From assembly GCA_025201365.1 (NCBI GenBank), contig JAIXMF010000004.1, positions 124,001-188,000 of the forward strand: a stretch of DNA of 64,000 nt. Direction: 5' to 3'. The DNA comes from Syncephalis plumigaleata. Its lineage: Eukaryota; Zoopagomycota; Zoopagomycetes; Zoopagales; Piptocephalidaceae. Each line of letters opens with the position of its first letter. Within the stretch, counting starts at the first letter, position 1. Below, in pieces: positions 24,472 through 47,455 of the stretch. The position numbers and the translations under genes were made by a program. The notes under the pieces were generated by a model. The model saw only the letters and a list, made by a program, of their open reading frames with translations. It had not been told where the DNA came from and ran no database searches.

Positions 24472-24815
24472 ATGAAGTTCTCTGCCGTTGTCGCTCTCAC
24501 TAGTCTGACCGCCGTTGAAGCTAGCCCAATAGGATGTGTCGTCGTGCTGTTGTCGAACGCCGTGCTCCAAATCCTGATCCTACTGTTCCTTTCACTCATT
24601 CTTCTAACGTCTCTTAAGTGGACAAGACAAGGACATCATCAAGTAGATATTATAGGTATTCAAGTCAAGAATGGATTGGTGCAAGACCCTTTAGTGTCCA
24701 TACATTCAAGTCATTATTCCTTGAACCAAGAAATATATCTACAAGATCATTTAATCATTTATTGAATAAATATGTCAATTTATATATGCCATACAATCAT
24801 TTCAATAGAATATAG
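24472..24815 (+). CDS. compact secreted protein, paralogue of the micro-exon gene
   Basis: ATG 24472 opens a signal peptide, MKFSAVVALTSLTAVEAS. Two readings follow. Either a one-base slip leads to a dibasic-rich peptide (RRAVVERRAPNPDPTVPF), or an intron ends at TCTCTTAAG (24616) after a good branch-like TTCTAACG. From 24618 the frame [18 protein letters not shown] continues to the stop at 24815. That last part (24620-24776) is nearly the same as the terminal exon of the gene ending at 38233. The leader before the ATG (TCAATATCAAC) also matches the leader at 25398-25408. No micro-exon array is present here. Function unknown. A small secreted or effector-like protein is inference from the signal peptide. 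Confidence 0.5.
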
Positions 24816-25408: not shown

Positions 25409-25486
25409 ATGGAATCATCTGCTGATAACAATAACAATAGCAAGCCTATAGTCAATGCTGCAACATCCGTATCATCAAATTCCCTG
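25409..25486 (+). CDS. first coding exon of the micro-exon gene
   Basis: 26 codons from ATG 25409 to CTG|GTATTT at 25486. The leader GACAATATCAAC and the codons for Met, third-position Ser and Ala align with the start of the gene at 24472, but the hydrophobic signal peptide is not kept. Asn/Ser-rich. Confidence 0.6.
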
Positions 25487-28400
25487 GTATTTCTATCATC
25501 ATCATCATCATCGATACTAGTCAACATACTAATCGTAATACTATTATCTAATGGTCTTTCTAATGACAATCAGTAGATGGTAAGTCTATATCGTATGACA
25601 TTGATTGCGATACTGATGATGATGCCACCTATGATGCTGTCAATCATAGCTGGTGAGTTAAACAACGAGTGAGCATGACATATGTCGTGTTGACTGGAAT
25701 GTAAATCAAAATCATATGTTACTATTATAAAAGCAGACGTAAGTTGATATTCTGTCTAAATAAACATACAATGTACTAATTGCAATACTCGTATGATAGG
25801 AGGTGAGTTGTGAATCACGATGATACTTTGCCATACGCTCATTGGAATGTGGCAATCGATTCCCGTATGATTATCATGCATAGGAACACGTAAGCTACTA
25901 GTATCATTGTAATGAGCCATTTGATTCACGTATGATTGCATGTATTAGTGGGTAAGCGAGCACTCGTTGGAATGTGGCATTCGATTCACCGATGATGACG
26001 CGTAATAGATTGTAAGTGGGCGGTATTCTGATTGCAGTATACGTCATACTAATTGCAATGGCACAATTGCTTCACTTGTCATTCCACACACACACACATA
26101 TGACAGCATGTATGTGATCATTTCGATCATAGCCTATGATGTGCTCATTACAAGTTGACATGTCATGATACGTGTACGATGACTGGTAACAGGATGTAAG
26201 TTGCTAGTCTAGCATCATCGTATAATGTACTAATAACAATAACTGTAACAACCTATACGTGCTCTGAATGGTTCAAGGATAAGATAATCTTTTTATTTAA
26301 TAAATGTGTAGAGTATTTATAATAAATTGTGATTACAAATGTTTTACAAACAAGTTGTAATCGTACTCACGATTCGGTTATCGTTACCGAACTATTCTCA
26401 TGAAAAATATAAGTAAGAGGAAAATGTTTTCATCACATCCCCCTCCTTAGATCAATGCCGACTCGGCATTGTGTTCGAATTCCTGAACGAGCTCCTGCGC
26501 ATTTATTAAGTCGTCTTTGGATTGCCAGGTCTTTTCGTGGTCTGCGTATCCTTTCCACTTAACGAGGTATTGTATCTTACCGCGTTTCACGCGTTTGCCT
26601 ACAATGGCTTCGACCTCGTATTCTTCTTCTCCGTTTATTATTTCTGGCGGTGGCGGTGGTGGATAGCGGTTAGTGAATTCGTCTGGATTCGCTTCATATC
26701 GTTTTAATACGCTAACGTGGAATACATCGTGTATTCTCATGTCATCGGGTAACTGTAGTTTGTACGCTACTGTTGACACGCGCTCTATAATCTTGAAAGG
26801 GCCTGTAAATTGATGTGACAGCTTATACTTTGGCCTGTCACGCTCCATGTCTCGTGTCAAGTTCCTTGTTGACAGAAGAACTTGATCTCCAACTTGAAAT
26901 TCCATTTCCCGTCGTTTCTGATCAGCGTTATACTTTTGTCTTCCTTGTGCCTTCTTCAGCGCATCTCGTGTTGTTAAATAAATGTCATTTAACTTCTGTA
27001 AAAATGCTACAGTGTCTTCTACGTTAGTGTCATTTTTGAAGTTGTGTGGTCGCGTCAGATCATCTGGCATGTACGGATGATGGCCTAAGTCGGCGTAAAA
27101 GGGTGAGTAACCTGTTGACGATTGTTTGGCATTGTTGTAAGCGAATTCGACTAGTGCCAAATGTTGATCCCAATCATTCTGCTGATGATTGATGCAGGTA
27201 CGTAACAGCTGCTCTAATGTACGATTAGTGCGTTCCGTTTGGCCGTCTGTCTCGGGATGGAAGGCTGTAGACATAAGGATACGAACGCCGAGTAGCTTGT
27301 GTAGTTCTTGCCAGAATTTGCTTGTGAATTTCGCATCGCGGTCACACACAATCGAGCGGGGCATACCATGTAAACGCATGATGTTGTTGACAAACAGCTG
27401 CGCAACGTCAACTGCAGTCGCCGTTGTCTTCATAGGTATGAAGTGGGCTCGTTTCGTGAAACGATCTACAACGACAAAGATAGCGTCATAGCCTGCCTTA
27501 GTACGTGGTAATTGTACTATGAAATCCATGGAAATGTCGTGCCATCTTCCTTCGGGTATCGGTAAGGGCTGCAAAAGACCAGCAGGTAGTTGCTGCGAGT
27601 GTTTCGTGCGCTGACATATCTCACAAGATTTGATGTATCGTTTAATCATATTTGATAGACCGGGCCAATAGTATTTGCGTTTGACTGCCGCTATTGTCTT
27701 TTCTTCACCAAAATGTGCGGCTAATGGTGCATCATGATGATCGTTGAATATGTCCAGGTAGAGATTGTCGTAGTTGGGAATACACAATCGTGGTTCTACT
27801 CCCTTCATTTCGTATATTAATCCTTCGTCGTCGCACCTAAAATGCCGTAATATCTTACGTGTAGCCTTATTAAAGGCTTTCTTCTCCCCCATAACTATAG
27901 ACTTTACTCCTGTAAAGTAATCATCGTTATCGTATCCTGCCAGAATGCGTTGCTGGAAAGTGGAAGGCTCGATTGACTGTAAGGTACTACATACATCAAC
28001 TATGCGACGAGATAACGCGTCAGCTACGACGTTCCTGCTACCGGGTTTGTAACGGACGTCAATCTTGAAGTGGCGCAATATATCGACCCATCGTTTTTGT
28101 CGTGATAACAATACGCTTTGTTCAAGTAGACGTGTAAGTGACGAATGGTCTGTATAAAGGGTAAAACGATCATAAAGGAGGTAAGGGCGCCATGTCTTTA
28201 CGGCTGCAAGGATTGCTAACATCTCCTTGTCGTACGTAGAGTAGTTCTTCTCGGCGTCTTTCAACATACGTGACATGAAAGCAACAGGGTGTTCAACGTC
28301 ATCTATCTTTTGAGACAATACAGCACCGATTGCGGAATTGGATGCATCGGTAGAGACGATGAAAGGCACGGTAACATCAGGTATCGCTAAGACAGGTGCA

Positions 28401-31400
28401 GTAACGATAGCTTTACGCAATGTATCAAATGCTAACTGCTGCTCCTCCCCCCATGTAAACGGTACATCCTTCTTAGTCAATTGACTTAGATGTCGTGCAA
28501 TATCTGCGTATCCACGGATGAACCGTCTATAATACCCGGTTAATCCTAAAAATGACCGCAATTCCTTCAAATTACTGGGTACTGGCCAATCGGTAATGGC
28601 CGCTACTTTATCATGTAAAGGCTTTATGCCTTCACAACCAATATTATGTCCCAAGAATTCCACCTCCTCTTTACCGAACTCACACTTGCTCAGTTTCGCG
28701 TAAAGCTTATTTTTACGTAGTAATTCTAATACCTGTCTCAAATGCAATTCATGTTCCGCATGATTTTTACTAAAAATCAGTATATCATCTAAGAATACTA
28801 CTACACACTTGTCTAGCAAATTGTGAAACACGTTTTGCATTAAACGCATGAATACAGATGGTGCATTAGTTAAACCGAATCCCATTACTGTCCATTCGTA
28901 ATGCCCATAGCGCGTTCTAAACGCTGTTTTATGAATGTCATCTTCATGTACTCTAATTTGATGATATCCACTTCTCAAGTCGATCTTTGAGAACACCTTA
29001 GCCCCATGTAATTGATCGAACAATTCGTCGATCAATGGTAGCGCATAACGATCACGTATCGTTTGTGCATTTAGCATTCGATAATCCACACACATACGCA
29101 AATCACCCCCCTTCTTTTTCACAAACAGTACGGGTGCACCGAATGGTGATGTACTTGGCCTAATAAAGCCTTTTGCTAATAAATCATCTAATTGTCTTTT
29201 TAACTCATCTAATTCTTTCTTTGCTAAGTGATATGTGGGCCTGAATGGTGGCTGCTGATGTGGGATTAGATTGATACGTATATCAATATCGCGCTTAGGC
29301 GGTAATCCCGGCGGTAACTCGTCCGGTCCCACATCGGCGAACTCACTCAACAATCGGGCGTAACGCCCGTGCAATGGGTTATTTTCTTCTTTTGCCTCTT
29401 TTACCATTGCCAATAAAAATACATCATCTTTTCCTAACCGTTTCACTTCTTCTAACGACATCAGTGTAGATTTGACATCTCGATCATCTAAGTGATCATC
29501 CGTAGCGTTTGTCATTGATTCAATGGCACCTGAACTCCAATCTATCTGTGCCTCGTGTTTCCGTAACCACGGCATACCTAGTATTGCATCATAACTGCCC
29601 AATTTCATTATAGTAAAGTCGACATTTTCTTTAAAATAATCGTAAATTATAGGCACTTTATTAGCAATACCAGATACACCACACTCCATTCCGTTACCCA
29701 ATTTCACATTTGATTGCTTAACCGAGGTACTTACACGCACTTGTGCTTTCTCAGCGAATTCAGCGTTCATGAAGTTTGCCGAAGCGCCTGAGTCGACGAG
29801 CACGTGTGCAGTAACACCATTGATGATGGGTGCTACTGTAAGAACTCCGGAGCTTGCATTCCCTTGTATTAATGAGAACAGGTCGAATCCCGGGGGAATT
29901 TTGGGTGTAGGAGCGGTAGCGGCGTTCCGGTCGTCAGTAATATTGCCGCGTTCGATTACTGACGGTTGTCGTTTCCCTGATCGTTATCAGTGTCATTTTG
30001 GGTTTGGATATTGTTGATTTGTTGGTTGTTGTTGTAGTTGCGGTTATTGTTGAAATTACGATTATTATTGTAGTTGCGATTGTTGTTGTTTTTACGCTGG
30101 TTACAGTTGCGCGCGATGTGACCGCGTCCATTGCACTCGTAGCATCGTATAGCGTTGTTATTACTGTTACGATTGTTGTTGAAACCGAGACTATTTAAAA
30201 CTTGTACTAGCGTATCGAGGTCCATAGGCGTAGGTCCCGTTGTTGCTTTGACGACTGGTTGCGGTGCTATCTGTTGTAATCCATGTTTCCTTGAATAATA
30301 AAATGCTCTTGCTGCCGCGTATGCCTCGTTCAAATTCTTGACGTTGTGTTGAATGGAATCGGCCACGTATTCCGCGGGTAGGGTAAGTCGAAACGATGTT
30401 ACCAGTTCCATGTCGGCTGCATCCGGAATGCGACTGTGTAAGGCGGTGAAACCGGTAATGTGTTCTTCTAAATCGTGCTTTTCGTTCCATCGCAGCCTAG
30501 TTAATTCTAGACGTGCGATATCGGCAGATTTCTTTCCGCCAAATCGTTCTAAGATTCCCTCGCGGAATTGTTGCCAGGTAGTATACGGACTAGCGCTCCC
30601 ACGCACAGATTGGTACCAGATGGCGGCTGCGCCTGATAATTGCTGTGCTGCCATTACCAGCTTTTGCCCGTCTGTCCATTCTCCCAATGTCCATGCATCG
30701 TCGACCATGTTACACCAATACTCCACTGGGTACGCAGGGTTACCTGTGAATTTCTCGGTGTGGGTCAAAGGAGATCGAACGTGACTCATGATGTAAAAGT
30801 TGGAAGTCACGTAAATAGTATATTCTAAAATCTTGTTAGACGTTGGCTGTTAACAGTACGACGAACGTAAAAATAGCGGTACGACGAGCGTAAGAATAGC
30901 GGTACGACGAATCGTAAGAATAGCGGTACGACAAACGTAAGGGGTATCTGTGCGACGAACGCAATATGGCGATGGAAAGTAAACCGTTGCTACCAGTGTA
31001 ACAACCTATACGTGCTCTGAATGGTTCAAGGATAAGATAATCTTTTTATTTAATAAATGTGTAGAGTATTTATAATAAATTGTGATTACAAATGTTTTAC
31101 AAACAAGTTGTAATCGTACTCACGATTCGGTTATCGTTACCGAACTATTCTCATGAAAAATATAAGTAAGAGGAAAATGTTTTCATCACAATAACGATCA
31201 TCATCATTCTCTTCGCATATGATTGCACTAGTATGTAAGTGGACATTTCCATACTAATGCATGATATGTTAATAGCAATGCATCACACACACTCATATAC
31301 ATACATAATAGATTGTAAGAAGTTGGCATTCCAGTCTTACTAGTCGATGTACTCATTACCCTATGACATACAATTCACATATGATTATGAGTAATAGTAT

Positions 31401-34400
31401 GTAAGTGATGATCATTGCAATGTGCGAGCGGTTAATTACAAATTGATTGACGATTCATGTATGCTTCCATGTAACAGAGGGTAACTAGACATTCCTATCG
31501 TGATATGTGATGTGTTAATTGAAATGAGGGACATGGTTCATGATGGATGATTACACGGCATAGACTGTAGGTCGGCATTCTAGTATCAGTATACAGCATA
31601 CTAATCATAGTACTTGTTTATTATTACGAATAATAGGAGGCAAGTCATTACGATGACTATAGGATACAGTATGCTAATTGTAGCATGATACATGATTGAC
31701 TTGTAATAACATATGCAGAAGAAAGTAAGCTAGCATTCCAATAATAATCACAATAATCATAATGCAAATACAATTCATATACGTGTGTGGGTGTGTGTGT
31801 GTGATAATCACACGACTTAGGATGTAAGTTGACACGTGGACTACAATCCTAAAATGTAGCTCACCTATGACTATGGAATACAATAGGCCGTAAGTTATCA
31901 TTTCGATTGAAGCATATGAGACATTAATTGGAGTGTGGAATACAATCCACGTACTATCACGTATAACAGAAGGTAAACTAGCATGTTAATGACAATAGAC
32001 AATGTATGCTAATAAGAGTGTGGCACATGATTTGTATATGAATACGTACAGCGAAGAGTAAGCTAGTATTATGATGACAATGAATGAAGTATTAATTGTA
32101 GTGCGGCATACAATTTCCGTACGATTACGAACGATAGCCTGTAAGCAAGCATTCTAATGACAATCGGACCATGTACTAATTGGAATACGGCATGCGATCT
32201 ACATACAATTATGTACAGAAAAAGGTAAACTAGTATTATAATAACAATGGGTGAAGTATTAATTGTAGTATGACGTATAATTTCTGTATGATTATGAATG
32301 GCAGACGGTAAATGAGCATAATGCCTACAGCATGAGATGGGGCTGATCATAATGCACCATACAATCCTCGTATGATTACCCGTTACAGACAGTAAGTTGG
32401 CATCTTGGTTTCACTATGCAATGATCTAATTGTAAATTGGGGTATGACTCGCTTGTGATTGTGGATGGCAGAAAGTAGGTTAGCATATCAATGTCAGCAT
32501 ACAATCGTCCAACTGTAATTAACATATAACTGCTTATGATTACGTATGATAGACGGTAAGCTTACATATGGATCATGGCATGCAATGAGCTAATCATATT
32601 GTGTTACTCGATTTCTATACAAGACCATAGCAAATGGAGTAAGTTAATATACGATTACAGCCTACGGTGAATTAATATGACACCTAATACGCATATGTTT
32701 ACGCATGACAGATGGTAAGTTTGTATCATGATTACACTATGTGATGTATTAATTTTAATGAATATGATCCATACGTTATTACAAATAAAGGTGGTAAGTT
32801 AACATAATGACTGCAGCATATGGCAGGCTGATTATAACATTCGATTTCTGCATGATTATGAATGGCAGACGGTAAGTGGTCGTAATGATAGCAGCATACG
32901 ATGGGCTGATCATAATGCACCATACAATTCTCATATGATTACCCGTTACAGACAGTAAGTTGGTACACTAATTTCACCATTCAGTGAGCTTACTGTAAAT
33001 TGAAACATAATTCACGTACAATGGTACGTGGTAGATTGTAAGTTAGCATGATGATCACAGAACACAACGAGTTAACGTAACACGTAATAAACGTATGCCT
33101 ATACCTGACAGATCGTAAGTTAATAGATCAATTGCAGCATACGATAGTCCAACTGTAATTAACATATGGCTGCTTATAATTATCCACGATAGACGGTAAG
33201 CTAGTATATTGATTATAGATTTAATGAGCAAATCATATCGTGAACTCAATATCTATACAATTATATGTGACAGACCGTAAGTCAACGGACAACTGCAGCA
33301 TACGGTGAATTAATATGGCACCTAATACATGTATGATTATGAATGGCAGACGGTAAGTGGTCGTAATGATAACAGCATACGATGGGCTGATCATAATGCA
33401 CCATACAATTCTTGTATGATTGCCCGTTACAGGAAGTAAGTTGGTACACTAATTTCACCATTCAGTGAGCTTACTGTAAATTGACATATGACTCGCTTGT
33501 GATTATACGCGGTAGCCGGTAAGTTAGCATGTCAACTGTAGCACGTGAGTTCGTTAAAGTTTAACATATGCTTTACTTTTGATTATGAATGGCAGGGTGT
33601 AAGTCATCGTTATTGATTACGGTATACAGCAAATTAATACTAATGCGGTATACCATTGGCGTATGCTTGTAATGACAGATGGTAAGCCAGCACCATAATC
33701 GCAGCATACGATTGACTGATTGCGATGTAACGCTTTACCGATTTGTGATTATGCATGACAGCCGGTAAGCTATTAGATTGATTGCAGCCTATAACAAGTT
33801 GATTAAATACAATGAATTAATATAACACTTCTTAATACACGTATGATTATGCATGGTAGACGGTAAGTTATCAAGATTGATTATAGCACACGATGGATTA
33901 ATATAGCATGGAATCCATGTACGATTATGCATGGTAGAGGGTCAGTTAACATGTCAGCTGTAACGCATGAGCTCATTAGTATTTAACATATGCCTTACTT
34001 CTGATTATGGATGGCAGATCGTAAGTTATCGCACTGATTAAAACTTACGATAGTCCAATTGTTATTGACATATGGTTACTTATGATTACGTATGATAGAC
34101 GGTAAGCTTATCTAGTGATTATGGCATGCAATGAACTAATCATATTGGGTACTCGATTTTTATATAATTGTATGAGATAGACGGTAAGCTAACACGATGA
34201 TTACAGCATGTGATAAAAACTAATAACGGATTAACATACAACTCTACATATACTTGTACCTGGTAGACTGTAAGTTAGCATATCAATGTCAGCATACAAT
34301 CGTCCAACTGTAATTAACATATGGCTGCATATACTTACGTATGATAGACGGTAAGCTTACATATGGATCATGGCATGCAATGAGCTAATCATATTGTGAT

Positions 34401-37400
34401 ACTCGATTTTTGTATAATTGTATGAGATAGACGGTAAGTCAACATACGGGCTGAAGCATACGGTGAATTAATATGACACCTAATATACGTATGCTTATAA
34501 TTATTAGAAAGTAAGTTTATATACAGGTTTCATCAAATAGTAAACTCATTAAAATGCCCATTACAATTTCATAGCTTTCTGAACGGGGGAAAGTAAGTCA
34601 ATATACAAAATCTAGTATGCAGTGAGCTGATTGTAGTGGTATACCATTGACATATGCTTATGAATGATAGAATGTAAGCTAGCATTACCATTACTGCATG
34701 CAACGAATTAATCGTAATGGGGCATATGATTCACATGTGATTACAAACGATAGAAGGTAAGGTATTATTCAATGTTAATGTTGAATGAACTAATTGCAAA
34801 ATGCTCTATGATTCACGTATAATTACATTTGGTAGTTTGTAAGCTGACATGCTGGTTACAAGATGTGACATGCTAATGGTAATGTCATTAAATGATTCAC
34901 ATAAAACTACAACTGTTAGGGGGTAAGTCATCATTCTGATTACAATCTACGGCATACTGATTGGAATATCACAAATGATTAATGTATGGTTGCATGATAG
35001 TTTGTAAGTTTTTTTATTTTTGCCAATCAGCTTGAGCTGAACCACCATTGTCCTCCATCGGGACGGATAGTTTGTAAGTTAATACCCGAATGATAATGTA
35101 TCATGCACTCATTACAATGGGATGTTCAATCTACGTAGAATCCTGTACAGAAAGACGTAAGTTTTATCGTTTGATGTGGTCAAGCATCTTGTGAGACTAA
35201 TCCACTGCTGTATCTCCTAGTTGGAGGCTGAGAAGCAACGTGTAAGTCATCATTCTGATTACAATCTACATCATGCTAATTATAATACGATATGTGATTG
35301 TATCGCTATTATAGCAAGTAAGTTAATATCCAAATGATAATGCATCATACACTCATTACAATGGGATGTACAATTCACGTATAATCATGTATAGGAAGCG
35401 GTAAGCTTTATCGTTTGCTTTGAGCAAGCATCTTGTGAAGCTAAACCGCTGTTGCATGTCATAGTTGGAGGCTGAGAAGCAGCGTGTAAGTTGATGTCAC
35501 CATTACACTCTACACTATACTGATTGCAATGGGATATGTGCTTGTATTAATATTATAGCAAGTAAGTTGATATCCAAATGATAATGCATCATGCACTCAT
35601 TATAATGAGATGTATAGCCCTCGTATAATCATGCACAGAAAGAAGTAGGTTTTATCGTTTGATTTGGCCAAACATCTTGTGAAGCTAAACCGCTGTTGTA
35701 TGTTATAGTTGGAGGCTGAGAAGCAAAGTGTAAGCTATTGTTCTGATTACAATCTACTGTATACTAATCGGAATGTGACAAATGATTGATGCATGGCCCA
35801 GTTGGAGATTGCGAATCAACATGTAGGTTGATGTCAAGATTACAGTCTACGGTATACTAATCGGAATATCACAAATGATTACCGTATGGCCACATGATAG
35901 CTTGTAAGCTGAACGTGTCAGCTAGTAGACATGAAGCATTAATCATAGTGTGACATACAATTCCCGTATGATCATGGATACTAGGATGTAAGCTAGCATT
36001 GTTAACATTGATACGTCGATCTAATTGCAATGTGGTAAACAACTCGCGTGTGATTACATATAACAGCTTGTAAGTGGGCATTGTAATCACGATATGCGGT
36101 GTACTGATTGCATTATGGCACATGATTCACGTATGGTTGTATGTGGTAGTTTGTAAGTTTATTATTCTTGTTATGACATACGAGACATTAACTGGAATGG
36201 GACACTCAATCCACGTATAATTATACGCATCAGGGAGTAAGTCAGCATTCATGTTGTAATACGATATTGATAGCTGATAGTGATTTGGCATATCATTCAT
36301 ATATATATGCATGTGTGAATAATAGGCCGTAAGCTAGCATTCTAATGGCAATTTGACGATGGACTAATAATCGTAATGATGTGGTGTACACCCACAAATG
36401 ATCATGAATGATAGATGGTAAGAAAGTCAACCTATTCATTGGGATAATCTAGTGGCTAACTGCAGTATAATATCTCATTCGTGTATGCTTACGTGTCATA
36501 GGCAGTAAGTGGACATTCGAATGTTATCGTATGGTAGATTGATTGCCGTATAATGGTATACGTTTCATGTATGGCCACATTCTATAGTTTGTAAGTGGGC
36601 ATTTTGATTGGAATGTGACATACAACTCACCTATGATTATGCGTGATAGGAGGTAAGCAGGCATTCTTATCCCGATATACGACATGCTAATGGCAATGTA
36701 TGACATACGATCCATGCATGATCATGTATGATAGAAGAAGGTAGGCTAACATTCTAGTAGCACGTATTCCCCACTAATTGCAGTATGAAATACTATCCAT
36801 GTCTATGTGATTGCGTATGATAGCAAGTAAGTTGATGTATTATTGCCGTGTATGTCGTGCTAACAACAACATCACCATGCCATATGATTGACGTATAACT
36901 ATTGAACAGAAGGTAAACTAGCATTTCGATCAGAATAGACGATGTGCTCATTGCAATGCGAACACGATTCCTATACACTTCTATACGATAGGATGTAAGT
37001 CGATAGTGCTGCTGCATTCTATGGTGCACTAATCACAAGACAACGTACGACTTACATTTGATTACGTAGAATAAAGGGCAAGTGGACATGTCAATGGCAA
37101 TTTGCAATACGCTAATTACATTGCGGCATTCAATTCCCATATGATTGTGAATGACAGGAGGCAAGTTGGTATTTCTAATGACAATCTATGACGTGCTAAT
37201 TGCAATGTACGCCATATGGATCGTGTATACTCACGTATAATAGCATGTAAGCGAGCACTTTTACTTGCAATATGTGACATGCTAATGACGATATGTGGCA
37301 TACGATTCACGTATTACCGGATTAACAGAAGGCAAGCCAGTGATTTGATCGTGATATGTCATGTGCTAATTGCAATACGACATGCAATCCATGCATAATC

Positions 37401-38233
37401 ACATACAACAGGAGGCAAGTCAATGGATTGATGACAAGCTATGCTATGCTAAATGCAATACGAGTTGACTAATATACGATCATGGGTAATAGAAAGTAAG
37501 CTATCATCTCGACTACAATGGATGATTCATTGATTGCAACATGTAACATGGCTCATTCACAATGGCACAACATAGGATGTAAGTCAAAAGATGGCATAGT
37601 CACGATGCATGATGGACGACTAATCGATGTGTGATATGCAATCCGATACAATCATATCGAATAGCAAGTAAGCTGGTATTCCTGATGACAGTGTATGATC
37701 ACTCAACCATAATGTGCTACTCGATCCATGTGGATTGTAATAATAATAATAATAGGAAGTAAGTGGGCATGCCAATCAATGTATACGCATTACTCATTGT
37801 AATGGGACATGTTCTCCACGTATACTGACATACATCAGATTGTAAGCTATCTTTCCGATTACCATAGACTATCCACTGATTACAATCAATGTACAATACG
37901 ATATGTGTATGATTGTATGATAGCCTGTAAGTGGGCAGTATGACGATAACAAATACCGCATTAATTGTAATGGAATGTACGTTAATTGTTAAGGCATCTC
38001 GAGTAATGGTAAGGCAATGGTCCACAATAATCATACCCATACTAATCCACTATGATTACAGAACAAGACAAGGACATCATCAAGTAGATATTATAGGTAT
38101 TCAAGTCAAGAATGGATTGGTGCAAGACCCTCATTTAGTGTCCATATTATTCAAGTCATTATTCCTTGGTACAACAACAAGTATATCTACAAGATTACTC
38201 AATCATTTATTGAATAAATATGTCGTATTCTGA
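25409..38233 (+). CDS. giant micro-exon gene with single-codon exons
   Basis: A coding exon at 25409-25486 ([18 protein letters not shown]...) is followed by about 92 short units of the form YAG | spacer | GTAAGT. They are separated by mutually related 60-110 nt introns carrying CTAAT/TTAAT branch-like motifs. The spacers are 3 nt (about 75 units), 6 nt (8), 18 nt (1) and 21 nt (4). Only four are irregular (2, 8, 1 and 5 nt). Read in phase 0 they contain no stop codon. The array ends at an acceptor (38061) that opens a phase-0 terminal exon, [18 protein letters not shown], homologous to the compact paralogue. The predicted product is near 210 residues from 12.8 kb of DNA, about 5 kb of which is an inserted retroelement. 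The design recalls schistosome micro-exon genes and aphid bicycle genes but is more extreme. Splicing is inferred only. Confidence 0.7.
25577..26195 (+). other. micro-exon array, block I (before the retroelement)
   Basis: Candidate exons: ATG 25577, CTG 25650, AC 25737 (2 nt, one short of ACG), GAG 25800, GAACAC 25884, TGG 25949, ATT 26009, CAT 26107 and GAT 26193. Each is preceded by AG and followed by GTAAGY, GTGAGT or GTATGT. Intron lengths are about 60-95 nt. Confidence 0.65.
26239..26243. repeat. target-site duplication, left copy
   Basis: ATAAC directly before the left LTR is repeated directly after the right LTR (31191-31195). This is the 5-bp duplication expected of Ty3 integration. 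Confidence 0.9.
26244..26437 (-). repeat. 3' LTR of the Ty3 element
   Basis: 194 bp, starting TGTAACAACC and ending ATCACA on the plus strand (TG...CA ends). The purine tract is the complement of 26438-26452 (TCCCCCTCCTTAGAT). Confidence 0.93.
26447..29803 (-). CDS. Pol polyprotein of the Ty3 chromovirus
   Basis: About 1,118 residues. Domains in order: aspartic protease ([12 protein letters not shown]) at the start; reverse transcriptase near residues 190-370, with FLDDIL in the active-site position; RNase H near 480-600 ([14 protein letters not shown]); the HHCC zinc-binding part of integrase ending CEICQRTK; the catalytic core with DFIVQLP and [14 protein letters not shown]; and a C-terminal chromodomain ([16 protein letters not shown]) that may steer integration to marked chromatin. 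It lies in another frame than gag, and the family is known to make Pol by frameshift or read-through. Confidence 0.93.
29956..30810 (-). CDS. Gag protein of the Ty3 chromovirus
   Basis: 284 residues. The capsid-like region includes [19 protein letters not shown] and [18 protein letters not shown], as in retrotransposon gag domains. A CCHC knuckle ([14 protein letters not shown]) near residue 225 is followed by an Asn-rich tail. Gag packages element RNA into particles. It lies upstream of pol on the minus strand. Confidence 0.92.
30979..30996 (-). other. primer-binding site of the Ty3 element
   Basis: On the minus strand, one base after the LTR, the sequence TGGTAGCAACGG begins. It fits the TGGTAGC start of sites that pair with the 3' end of initiator tRNA-Met. 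Confidence 0.6.
30997..31190 (-). repeat. 5' LTR of the Ty3 element
   Basis: 194 bp, reading as the same sequence as the left LTR, and followed by the ATAAC duplication at 31191-31195. Confidence 0.93.
31232..34510 (+). other. micro-exon array, block II
   Basis: Candidate exons by start: TAT 31232, ATT 31312, TAT 31398, AGG 31478, ACT 31564, GAG 31637 (GC donor), AAGAAA 31719, GAT 31821, GCC 31887, AAG 31970, CGAAGA 32052, CCT 32137, AAAAAG 32219, ACG 32305, ACA 32389, AAA 32472, ACG 32553, CAAATGGA 32631 (8 nt), ATG 32712, GTG 32791, ACG 32869, ACA 32952, ATT 33035, ATC 33112, ACG 33193, ACC 33274, ACG 33350, GAA 33433, CCG 33516, GGT 33596, ATG 33679, CCG 33762, ACG 33860, AGG 33938, ATC 34018, ACG 34099, ACG 34181, ACT 34267, ACG 34348, ACG 34431, AAA 34508. 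Introns are about 70-95 nt. Thr (ACG) codons dominate. Confidence 0.7.
34575..35822 (+). other. micro-exon array, block III with 18- and 21-nt exons
   Basis: Exons: 34575-34592 (18 nt, LSERGK), AAT 34671, AAG 34754, TTT 34836, GGG 34920, TTT 35001, TTT 35071, AAAGAC 35151, 35221-35241 (21 nt, LEAEKQR), CAA 35315, GAAGCG 35395, 35465-35485 (LEAEKQR), CAA 35559, AAAGAA 35639, 35709-35729 (LEAEKQS) and 35802-35822 (LEIANQH). A three-unit module of roughly 240 bp (21-nt exon, CAA, 6-nt exon) is duplicated. Its Glu/Lys/Gln content suggests a helix. Confidence 0.7.
35901..37926 (+). other. micro-exon array, block IV
   Basis: Exons: CTT 35901, GAT 35985, CTT 36067, TTT 36150, GGA 36234, GCC 36326, ATG 36415, GCA 36502, TTT 36588, GAG 36650, AAGAAG 36735, CAA 36824, AAG 36910, GAT 36992, an irregular unit at 37077, GAG 37158 (GC donor), CAT 37244, AAG 37329 (GC), GAG 37412 (GC), AAA 37493, GAT 37576, CAA 37665, GAA 37756, ATT 37839 and CCT 37924. 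A last irregular unit (5 nt) lies at 38004. Confidence 0.7.
38062..38233 (+). CDS. terminal exon of the micro-exon gene
   Basis: After the acceptor GATTACAG at 38061 the phase-0 frame begins [18 protein letters not shown] and goes on to GARPSFSVH. It then slips by one missing base near 38145 into [18 protein letters not shown], ending at TGA 38231-38233. The paralogue at 24618-24815 keeps the same order without the slip. AATAAA at 38214 may act as the poly(A) signal. Confidence 0.65.
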
Positions 38234-46135: not shown

Positions 46136-47455
46136 ATGCGGCTCATTATCGAATTGAATCCTCGCACCCTTGCTTTATTACTTCGAGAGAAGCCGGAAGA
46201 AGTCGCCGCGGCATTTGATGAGACATTAGATGAAAAAATTCAAATGAGCCGAATGTTAGCATTACTTGCTGCAATAGAAGAATCGCAAGAAAATCGCAGC
46301 ACATCAAGTCAACAGTCTTCACGAGGTGATAATAATAATGAAGATGCAGAATCATGTACGACAAAAGCCAATGTCGATGATAAGCTCAATAGAATGGATA
46401 TACCTGATTGTAATTTTTCCTTAAGGACGGACAGTCTACTTAATAAGGATCTTACAAGAATAGCCGCTAAACTACAAGCACTGGGAATAAATTGTGACGA
46501 TAATTCAAGCGAGCAAACTACAGCGTCTACTAGTTCTACATCAAGCGCGAATAATGATGGCAATCCAAATGAACAAGCCACGACGTCCACTAGTTCTACA
46601 TCAAGCGCGAATAATGATGGCAATTCAAATGAACAAGCCACGACGTCCACTAGTTCTACATCAAGTGTGAATAATGATGACAATTCAAATGAACAAGCCA
46701 CGACGTCCACTAGTTCTACACCAAGTGTGAATAATGATGACAATCCAAATGAACAAGCCACGGCATCTACTAGTTCTACATCAAGCGCGAATAATGATGG
46801 CAATTCAAGCGAGCAAACTACAGCGTCTACTAGTTCTACACCAAGTGTGAATAATGATGACAATCCAAATGAGCAAACTACAGCATCTACTAGTTCTACA
46901 CCAGGTGTGAATAATGATGACAATCCAAATGAACAAGCCACGGCATCTACTAGTTCTACATCAAGCGCGAATAATGATGGCAATCCAAATGAACAAGCCA
47001 CGACGTCCACTAGCTCTACAGCAAGCGCGAATAATGATGATAATTCAAGCGAGCAAACTACAGCGTCTACTAGCTCTACAACAAGTGCGAATAATGATGG
47101 CAATTCAGAAGAACAAACCACGACGTCTACAAGTTTTAGACCGACTACTAGAAGCACTTTTAGGGAATATACGCGACGTCTGTACACAATAACGCTACGC
47201 TCAAATGTGAATCGTAGACCTTGTATGCAAATATTTATTGTAACACCTAGGGGCAGGACTCTTACATTATTTGTAGATCCATCTGATACAATTCATGATA
47301 TAAAGCTGGATATTGAAGATATGGAGGGTGTTCAAGCAAAGCATCTGTGTTTATTTTATTACGGCAAGCCATTAGATAATCGCCGTACATTATCTGATTA
47401 TAACATTGAGAAAGAGACTTCTCTTCATTCATATTCCAGATTTTGGGGGTGGTAA
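46136..47455 (+). CDS. ubiquitin-like domain protein with Ser/Thr repeat linker
   Basis: A single exon of 439 residues. The N-terminus (MRLIIELNPRTLALLLREKP) is helical and acidic. Residues about 122-330 are a tandem repeat of a 20-residue unit. The C-terminal 75 residues form a divergent ubiquitin: MQIFIVTPRGRTLTLFVDPS, then DTIHDIKLDIEDMEGV, RTLSDYNIEKETSLH. The chain ends SRFWGW in place of the usual LRLRGG, so it lacks the Gly-Gly needed for conjugation. Several ubiquitin lysines are replaced. It is best read as a non-conjugated ubiquitin-like adaptor. Intronless, unlike nearly all its neighbours. Confidence 0.8.
   Translation: MRLIIELNPRTLALLLREKPEEVAAAFDETLDEKIQMSRMLALLAAIEESQENRSTSSQQSSRGDNNNEDAESCTTKANVDDKLNRMDIPDCNFSLRTDSLLNKDLTRIAAKLQALGINCDDNSSEQTTASTSSTSSANNDGNPNEQATTSTSSTSSANNDGNSNEQATTSTSSTSSVNNDDNSNEQATTSTSSTPSVNNDDNPNEQATASTSSTSSANNDGNSSEQTTASTSSTPSVNNDDNPNEQTTASTSSTPGVNNDDNPNEQATASTSSTSSANNDGNPNEQATTSTSSTASANNDDNSSEQTTASTSSTTSANNDGNSEEQTTTSTSFRPTTRSTFREYTRRLYTITLRSNVNRRPCMQIFIVTPRGRTLTLFVDPSDTIHDIKLDIEDMEGVQAKHLCLFYYGKPLDNRRTLSDYNIEKETSLHSYSRFWGW
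46502..47135 (+). repeat. 60-bp coding minisatellite
   Basis: Ten full 60-bp copies and part of an eleventh, all in frame. They encode variants of NPNEQATTSTSSTSSANNDG. Copies differ at a few set positions (S/P, SS/PN, A/T, A/V, G/D), and neighbouring copies share combinations, as expected from unequal exchange. Confidence 0.95.

Follow-up and report, generated by a model that had tools for sequence, protein, structure and literature searches.

Exons of schistosome micro-exon genes (MEGs) measure 6–36 nt and hold several codons each. The coding sequence of these genes consists mostly of very small symmetric exons, and their products combine a signal peptide with a fast-changing mature part (excerpts of PMC4350168). 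The bicycle genes of aphids form a large family of putative effectors with about 17 exons on average, of which the internal ones are nearly all in phase 2, and one aphid gene, megacycle, has more than 100 micro-exons (excerpts of PMC9168663). Individual exons of 1 nt to 3 nt are described for plant APC11 and VPS55, for Drosophila homothorax and troponin T and for rodent NCAM (excerpts of PMC8831610, PMC7392893).

The genes analysed here bring exon size down to one codon, dozens in a row, within a family that numbers at least about 150 genes in a single genome. This genome is that of the mycoparasite Syncephalis plumigaleata (Zoopagomycota, Piptocephalidaceae; 32.6 Mb, 383 contigs), and the whole stretch of 64,000 nt in which our gene lies is called the window below. 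These are almost certainly protein-coding genes of small secreted peptides, with about one residue of the mature peptide per exon, a family known here from DNA and deposited protein models. Copies of its terminal exon number at least 150 genome-wide (of 215 candidates, 150 were scored), and the signal-peptide exon likewise occurs at least 150 times (150 scored of 169, judged by eye), with no stop in any of the 150 scored signal-peptide exons. We read 90 loci (L009–L098), mostly over 1.5–1.9 kb upstream of the terminal exon. Exon and intron statistics derive from 73 of these 90; another 12 were unparsed (intronless, or with a weak or no acceptor) and five had fewer than eight introns.

From these loci we delineated the typical gene. 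The first exon encodes a signal peptide and a propeptide, usually measures 94 nt and ends with CGTCGTG in phase 1. It is usually followed by an exon of 3 nt and often by one of 9 nt, before an exon of 2 or 5 nt brings the frame back to phase 0. Next comes the run of 3-nt exons, with homologous introns of about 80 nt in between, and the gene closes with a stop exon and a 3′UTR exon. In locus L021, for instance, the 94-nt exon 1 is MKFSAIIAIAVAIVALTSLVAVEASPVLERR plus one base, the exons CTC, CTGACGAAGAGC and AA lead to phase 0 (APDEEQ), and nine single-codon exons (TGT TGC AAA GGC GTC ATG TGT CAA TGC) precede the stop exon TAATAAGCG and the 3′UTR exon, giving a product that terminates in APDEEQCCKGVMCQC. 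Composition varies, with His and Gly abundant in L042 and Lys and Ala in L056. The longest intact gene parsed, L100, fits 47 exons of one codon each, an adaptor of 5 nt and a stop exon into about 4.1 kb; its reading frame is open from the ATG to the stop exon in a frame-blind parse. Three loci (L048, L072 and L082) have an extra 5′ block with the propeptide RR-AVVERR-A and two dibasic sites, and related arrays at C58:10437–12682 and C223:612325–614568 contain several consecutive 6-nt, two-codon exons.

The features of the window gene and its surroundings are listed in Table 1. We parsed its array by dynamic programming on donor, acceptor and branch-point scores, blind to frame and with the retroelement excluded, and obtained 92 exons between 25577 and 38008 beyond the ATG exon. 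The earlier note had counted about 92 units, about 75 of them of 3 nt and the others of 6, 18 or 21 nt. Its totals agree with the parse (75 exons of 3 nt, eight of 6 nt, three of 21 nt and one of 18 nt); its size list has to be extended by one exon of 15 nt and by four whose length is not a multiple of three, namely 2 nt at 25737, 8 nt at 32631, 8 nt at 37070 and 5 nt at 38004. The 2-nt exon serves as phase adaptor and recurs in L021, L052, L066, L092, L093 and L097. The two 8-nt units (32631 and 37070) have, as judged by eye, what looks like a mutated form of the usual acceptor, and the frame would be kept if either were skipped. The 21-nt exons at 35221, 35465 and 35709, read with 6- and 3-nt exons in phase 0, encode KDLEAEKQRQ EALEAEKQRQ KELEAEKQS.

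Table 1 Coordinates of the window gene, the inserted retroelement and the neighboring intronless copy.
Feature	Position in the window	Strand	Description
Intronless family copy	24472..24774	+	Signal-peptide sequence, array-like codons, then terminal-exon sequence directly
First coding exon of the window gene	25409..25486	+	78 nt, 26 residues read directly
Micro-exon array, first part	25577..26195	+	ATG, CTG, AC (2-nt phase adaptor), GAG, GAACAC, TGG, ATT, CAT, GAT
LTR retroelement in an array intron	26244..31190	-	gag-like and pol-like ORFs; not part of the gene
Main micro-exon array	31232..37926	+	Mostly 3-nt exons, introns of about 80 nt
Probable stop exon TAATG	38004..38008	+	TAA in the phase 0 of the array; counterpart of NNNTAAGCR in other members
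Terminal exon	38062..38233	+	End as in the earlier note; preceding intron with CTAAT and GATTACAG

The window gene belongs to a long subfamily: the last kilobase of its array is matched fully or nearly so at 16 places, the window included, partially at two further places and in short pieces only at eight more. One paralog, L099, occupies an 8.8-kb stretch of contig C1 and represents the same gene without the retroelement. The two LTRs of this element (26244–26437 and 30997–31190) are identical over 194 bp each and the element is missing from the same place in L099, and its insertion looks recent. Exon 1 of the window gene sits where other members have their signal-peptide exon and is not a signal peptide itself, so the gene lacks one, unlike a typical member. 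In L099, exons of 85, 3, 3 and 2 nt lead to phase 0 and the frame is open for 82 residues, no longer, in the parse. Because exon 1 measures 78 nt in the window and 85 nt in L099, the array of the window copy does not follow the frame of the ATG, and this copy is probably frameshifted; the gene may be a pseudogene or have a different start. The strict codons of the window contain no stop among 58 against 1.4 expected, a number uninformative alone. The architecture is better seen in the relatives than in the window copy. Elsewhere in the window, an ORF at 46136–47455 appears by eye to encode repeats of about 20 residues (NEQATTSTSSTSSANNDGNS-like) and then a ubiquitin-like C-terminal part, and the closest match of a kinase ORF (89%) is in Thamnocephalis sphaerospora, which we take to belong to the same order as S. 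plumigaleata.

Throughout the family, the 3-nt units behave as exons in spacing, codon content and intron structure. Genome-wide, we counted 2171 consecutive YAG-NNN-GTAAGY pairs versus three in a reversed-pattern control, while spacers of 2, 4, 5 and 6 nt gave 2, 0, 2 and 25 pairs versus 3, 2, 3 and 1 in the respective controls; in sister copies, too, spacer lengths keep to multiples of three, as the first reading of the locus would have it. The following YAG–GTAAGY and codon counts cover L009–L099 without L067, whose terminal match is weak, and include the end of the window gene itself as L009; 76 of these 90 counted loci had at least three strict units. In these 76 loci, the nearest YAG lies within 24 nt of GTAAGY in 1082 cases, and the distance is a multiple of three in 1072 of them (3 nt in 962, zero in none) and still in 110 of 120 if the 3-nt distances are left out; 31 further cases exceed 24 nt. 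Among 966 array codons there is a single stop versus 15.6 expected by column shuffling. Stops in the reverse complement are also low (6 versus 21.7 expected), so codon bias contributes to this depletion. CAG, which as a codon would itself form a YAG acceptor, is absent from the 966 codons versus about 9.8 expected from the same columns; TAG is absent as well, and CAA occurs 47 times.

The introns are constrained as well. Between two 3-nt exons we found 854 introns, preselected at 70–90 nt, so that their median of 80 nt (IQR 79–81) is valid within that range only, and 807 of them have a branch motif. The branch A lies 42 nt (IQR 41–42) from the AG, compared with 16 nt in the last intron of the genes. 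Between branch point and acceptor of these 807 introns, AG occurs 140 times versus 1498 expected, an approximately 11-fold reduction (ratio 0.09), while GA is undepleted in the same stretch (1493 versus 1498); AG is also rarer than expected on the upstream side of the branch point (ratio 0.39). Folding of the segment from branch point to acceptor gave no signal of secondary structure (mean z 0.12, 115 segments).

The reading frame leads to the same gene model. In 65 of 73 loci the penultimate exon has a stop in phase 0, and in 19 of 29 genes parsed from the ATG without frame bias the first in-frame stop falls exactly in the stop exon. The other ten fail this open-frame test, and nine of these were inspected; among the failures, one stops one exon early, three are in frame only with another acceptor chosen by eye, four have lost splice sites and two have a disrupted signal-peptide exon. 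Because loci and introns share descent, these counts are not independent. A point against the gene model is that the signal-peptide exons have no excess of diversity at third positions (heterozygosity 0.14, 0.079 and 0.108), and their nearest-neighbor differences comprise 15 synonymous and 54 non-synonymous changes.

Deposited proteins connect these codons into chains. Searching 5.8 billion proteins with one family member and requiring shared 5-residue words, we found four proteins from Syncephalis, one unnamed NCBI entry and two from metagenomes. The S. plumigaleata protein P0124 matches the frame-blind parse of L100 in 40 of 44 single-codon exons, from AAC to AAG and in order: its segment NPINGSMDYVYWKPIVPGYWGPIN corresponds to 24 consecutive single-codon exons without a gap, and the following GLCYTPSMEKECAPEK to the next 20 codons minus four. 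In P0121, QEWNEF equals six consecutive codon exons of L101, after which the protein reads into an intron and leaves the chain, and L101 is likewise open to its stop exon in the parse. Both proteins deviate from the parse just after the signal peptide, and P0122 and P0125 derive from intronless copies. Among the deposited proteins found, two contain a partial chain and none the full one; gene finders and RNA-seq aligners tend to overlook exons of one codon. The joining of long codon-exon runs is supported by these models, P0124 being, in our judgment, the best evidence that the 3-nt units are exons. Such a chain of codons would be hard to obtain in a deposited model without transcript reads. 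Pfam assigned no family to four short peptides and gave one sub-threshold match for a fifth. The two metagenome proteins, P0126 and P0127, from two JGI contigs, are relatives of the signal peptide with 71% and 60% identity, one of which seemingly reads on into an intron, and the family may exist in related fungi too.

Intronless copies carry array codons in the order expected after splicing. Within the copy upstream of the window gene, positions 24540–24575 are identical to the joined exons of L048 and L082 across seven junctions. Ten intronless copies were found, and five of them (L014, L022, L070, L095 and the window copy) match L082/L048 exactly over seven junctions, compared with at most four junctions after shuffling of exon order and at most two with shifted exon windows. 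L086 matches exactly over five junctions, barely above its shuffles (four), and L011, L017, L028 and L049 match over three, hardly or not above their shuffle maxima of two or three. The five seven-junction copies are close relatives and probably go back to one event; in all five the signal peptide is out of frame with the array codons. In the window copy, the array frame meets a TAA at 24615–24617 before the terminal-exon sequence, and the signal-peptide frame, a different one, has no stop for 97 codons and reaches into the terminal exon. The frame of L049 and L086 stays open until a TAA that precedes the terminal-exon sequence; L011 and L028 stop early, and the ATG is absent from L014 and L028. 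The second gene to which the terminal exon was first said to be homologous is this intronless copy of the same family.

The role of the terminal exon had to be revised in part. It had been read as continuing the protein in phase 0; in most relatives it is 3′UTR, because the preceding exon contains the phase-0 stop. This stop argues against the terminal exon being a usual part of the protein, as do stops of the proposed frame in 32 of 150 copies and a diversity without codon periodicity (0.046, 0.043 and 0.053). Against the reading as 3′UTR, all five indel sites in 30 aligned terminal-exon copies measure 3 or 6 nt, and the exon was possibly coding in former times. For the window gene, the assignment of TAATG as the stop exon is less certain than in the relatives because its acceptor is CGAG. 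An AAG acceptor 10 nt upstream would create a 15-nt exon without a stop that leads in phase 0 into the terminal exon, so that the window protein may either end at TAATG or run on as originally suggested.

Paralogs differ by whole units. L052 has four consecutive units fewer than L037, and the aligned introns are 96–100% identical except for the last two (0.74 and 0.91), while L093 has one unit extra and one missing compared with L092, in two places. Within genes, an identity of at least 90% between upstream introns was reached by 58 of 422 pairs of units with the same codon versus 103 of 7171 with different codons, an approximately tenfold difference; the mean identity of upstream introns for different-codon units is 0.66. 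These observations support the proposal, made in the earlier note from the window alone, that arrays grow by duplication of an intron together with its codon. Hypervariability of the codons was considered and rejected: a first comparison of 28 disjoint pairs gave a divergence of 0.154 for codons versus 0.077 for introns, with 73 of 76 differing codons non-synonymous, which resulted partly from units aligned out of register. When single units were compared and an identity of at least 93% was required of both flanking introns (22 pairs, two of which gave no codons), codon divergence was 0.036 versus 0.022 for introns, and 13 of 157 codons differed, none synonymously. We claim only that the codons appear to change at least as fast as the surrounding introns.

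The exon chain, its phase logic, the constraint on splice sites, the differences by whole units and the copies in spliced order are legible in the DNA itself, and a gene built mostly from single-codon exons, as initially postulated, is supported jointly by the depletion of stops and CAG, the branch-point spacing, the exclusion of AG, the intronless copies and the 40 of 44 codons in P0124. We propose that the ordinary spliceosome would remove every intron by intron definition, with a near-perfect GTAAGT as donor, CTAAY as branch point and, about 42 nt further on, the first AG as acceptor. Two complexes could not fit on an exon of 3 nt at the same time, so the introns are probably removed one after another. 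The precursor would be secreted and then cut at a dibasic site, and the peptide might have a role toward the host fungus or competitors. Arrays would expand and shrink through gain or loss of intron-plus-codon units, and therefore the peptide would change by whole residues; the loss of one splice site would merely drop one residue.

Other explanations account for part of this evidence. One of them, that a tandem repeat has expanded within a single large intron and that the transcript skips its intron-derived units, is barely credible: the units are homologous tandem repeats and known from DNA alone, but skipping the whole array would place a phase-1 exon directly before a stop exon with its TAA in phase 0, and the spacers in multiples of three, the absence of CAG, the exclusion of AG, the ordered codons in intronless copies and P0124 would all be left unexplained. 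Insertions of the introner type, in which a self-copying intron invaded ancestral intronless genes at almost all codon boundaries, would fit the homology of the array introns as well as the signal-peptide sequence and similar upstream sequence of the intronless copies. Such insertions would, however, have hit phase 0 and a 3-nt spacing repeatedly, whereas the more similar introns of same-codon units are expected if codon and intron duplicate jointly, and paralogs differ by whole units; we regard this origin as improbable.

A better candidate, although still an unlikely one, is that the arrays do encode protein and are spliced, yet amount for the most part to decaying debris, with a few active masters and most copies, including that of the window, being pseudogenes. 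This would be compatible with the explanation preferred here. In favor of such decay are six of the 29 parsed genes, in which splice sites are lost or the signal-peptide exon is disrupted, the probable frameshift and the retroelement insertion in the window copy and the near-identical copies on several contigs; the 19 of 29 genes that are intact in the frame-blind parse, the equally intact L100 and L101 and the single stop in 966 codons speak against it.

Returning to the reading as functional genes of secreted peptides, we tentatively suggest, as a possibility short of an even chance, that the codon-per-exon genes act as a peptide generator, in which a whole population of peptides could be secreted from each of the at least 150 loci. 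These would evolve by insertion, deletion and swapping of residues rather than by point mutation alone. Nearly every codon forms a phase-0 cassette between similar introns, and therefore unequal recombination between introns or the skipping of an exon stays in frame. P0124, which is still in frame without four scattered codons of L100, could illustrate what exon skipping would look like, the four absent codons reflecting either skipping or a limit of the annotation.

The literature searched, which took in few subscription papers, contained no published parallel to runs of single-codon exons. Isolated micro-exons demonstrate that the spliceosome can include exons of such sizes, but in the excerpts cited at the outset they are described singly, not by the dozen in a row. 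With the Syncephalis arrays, the lower limit of exon recognition becomes directly testable, and they offer a natural system for sequential intron-defined splicing at a fixed branch-point spacing. Recursive splice sites, which define an exon of zero length, likewise place acceptor and donor almost back to back; here 3 nt lie in between, and stops and CAG are avoided. As in aphid bicycle genes, there are many small internal exons and a large family, with a putative role as effectors, but the array exons are in phase 0 and form single-codon runs. As in schistosome MEGs, the coding sequence consists mostly of tiny symmetric exons and the family products carry a signal peptide (in at least 150 exons, by eye), which the window gene lacks. 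Unlike MEGs, the genes belong to a fungus, contain runs of single codons and enter phase 0 after a dedicated adaptor of 2 or 5 nt. We file the Syncephalis arrays as extreme micro-exon genes outside the MEG and bicycle families, and with them a fungus joins flukes and aphids as a lineage with a secreted family built from tiny in-frame exons.
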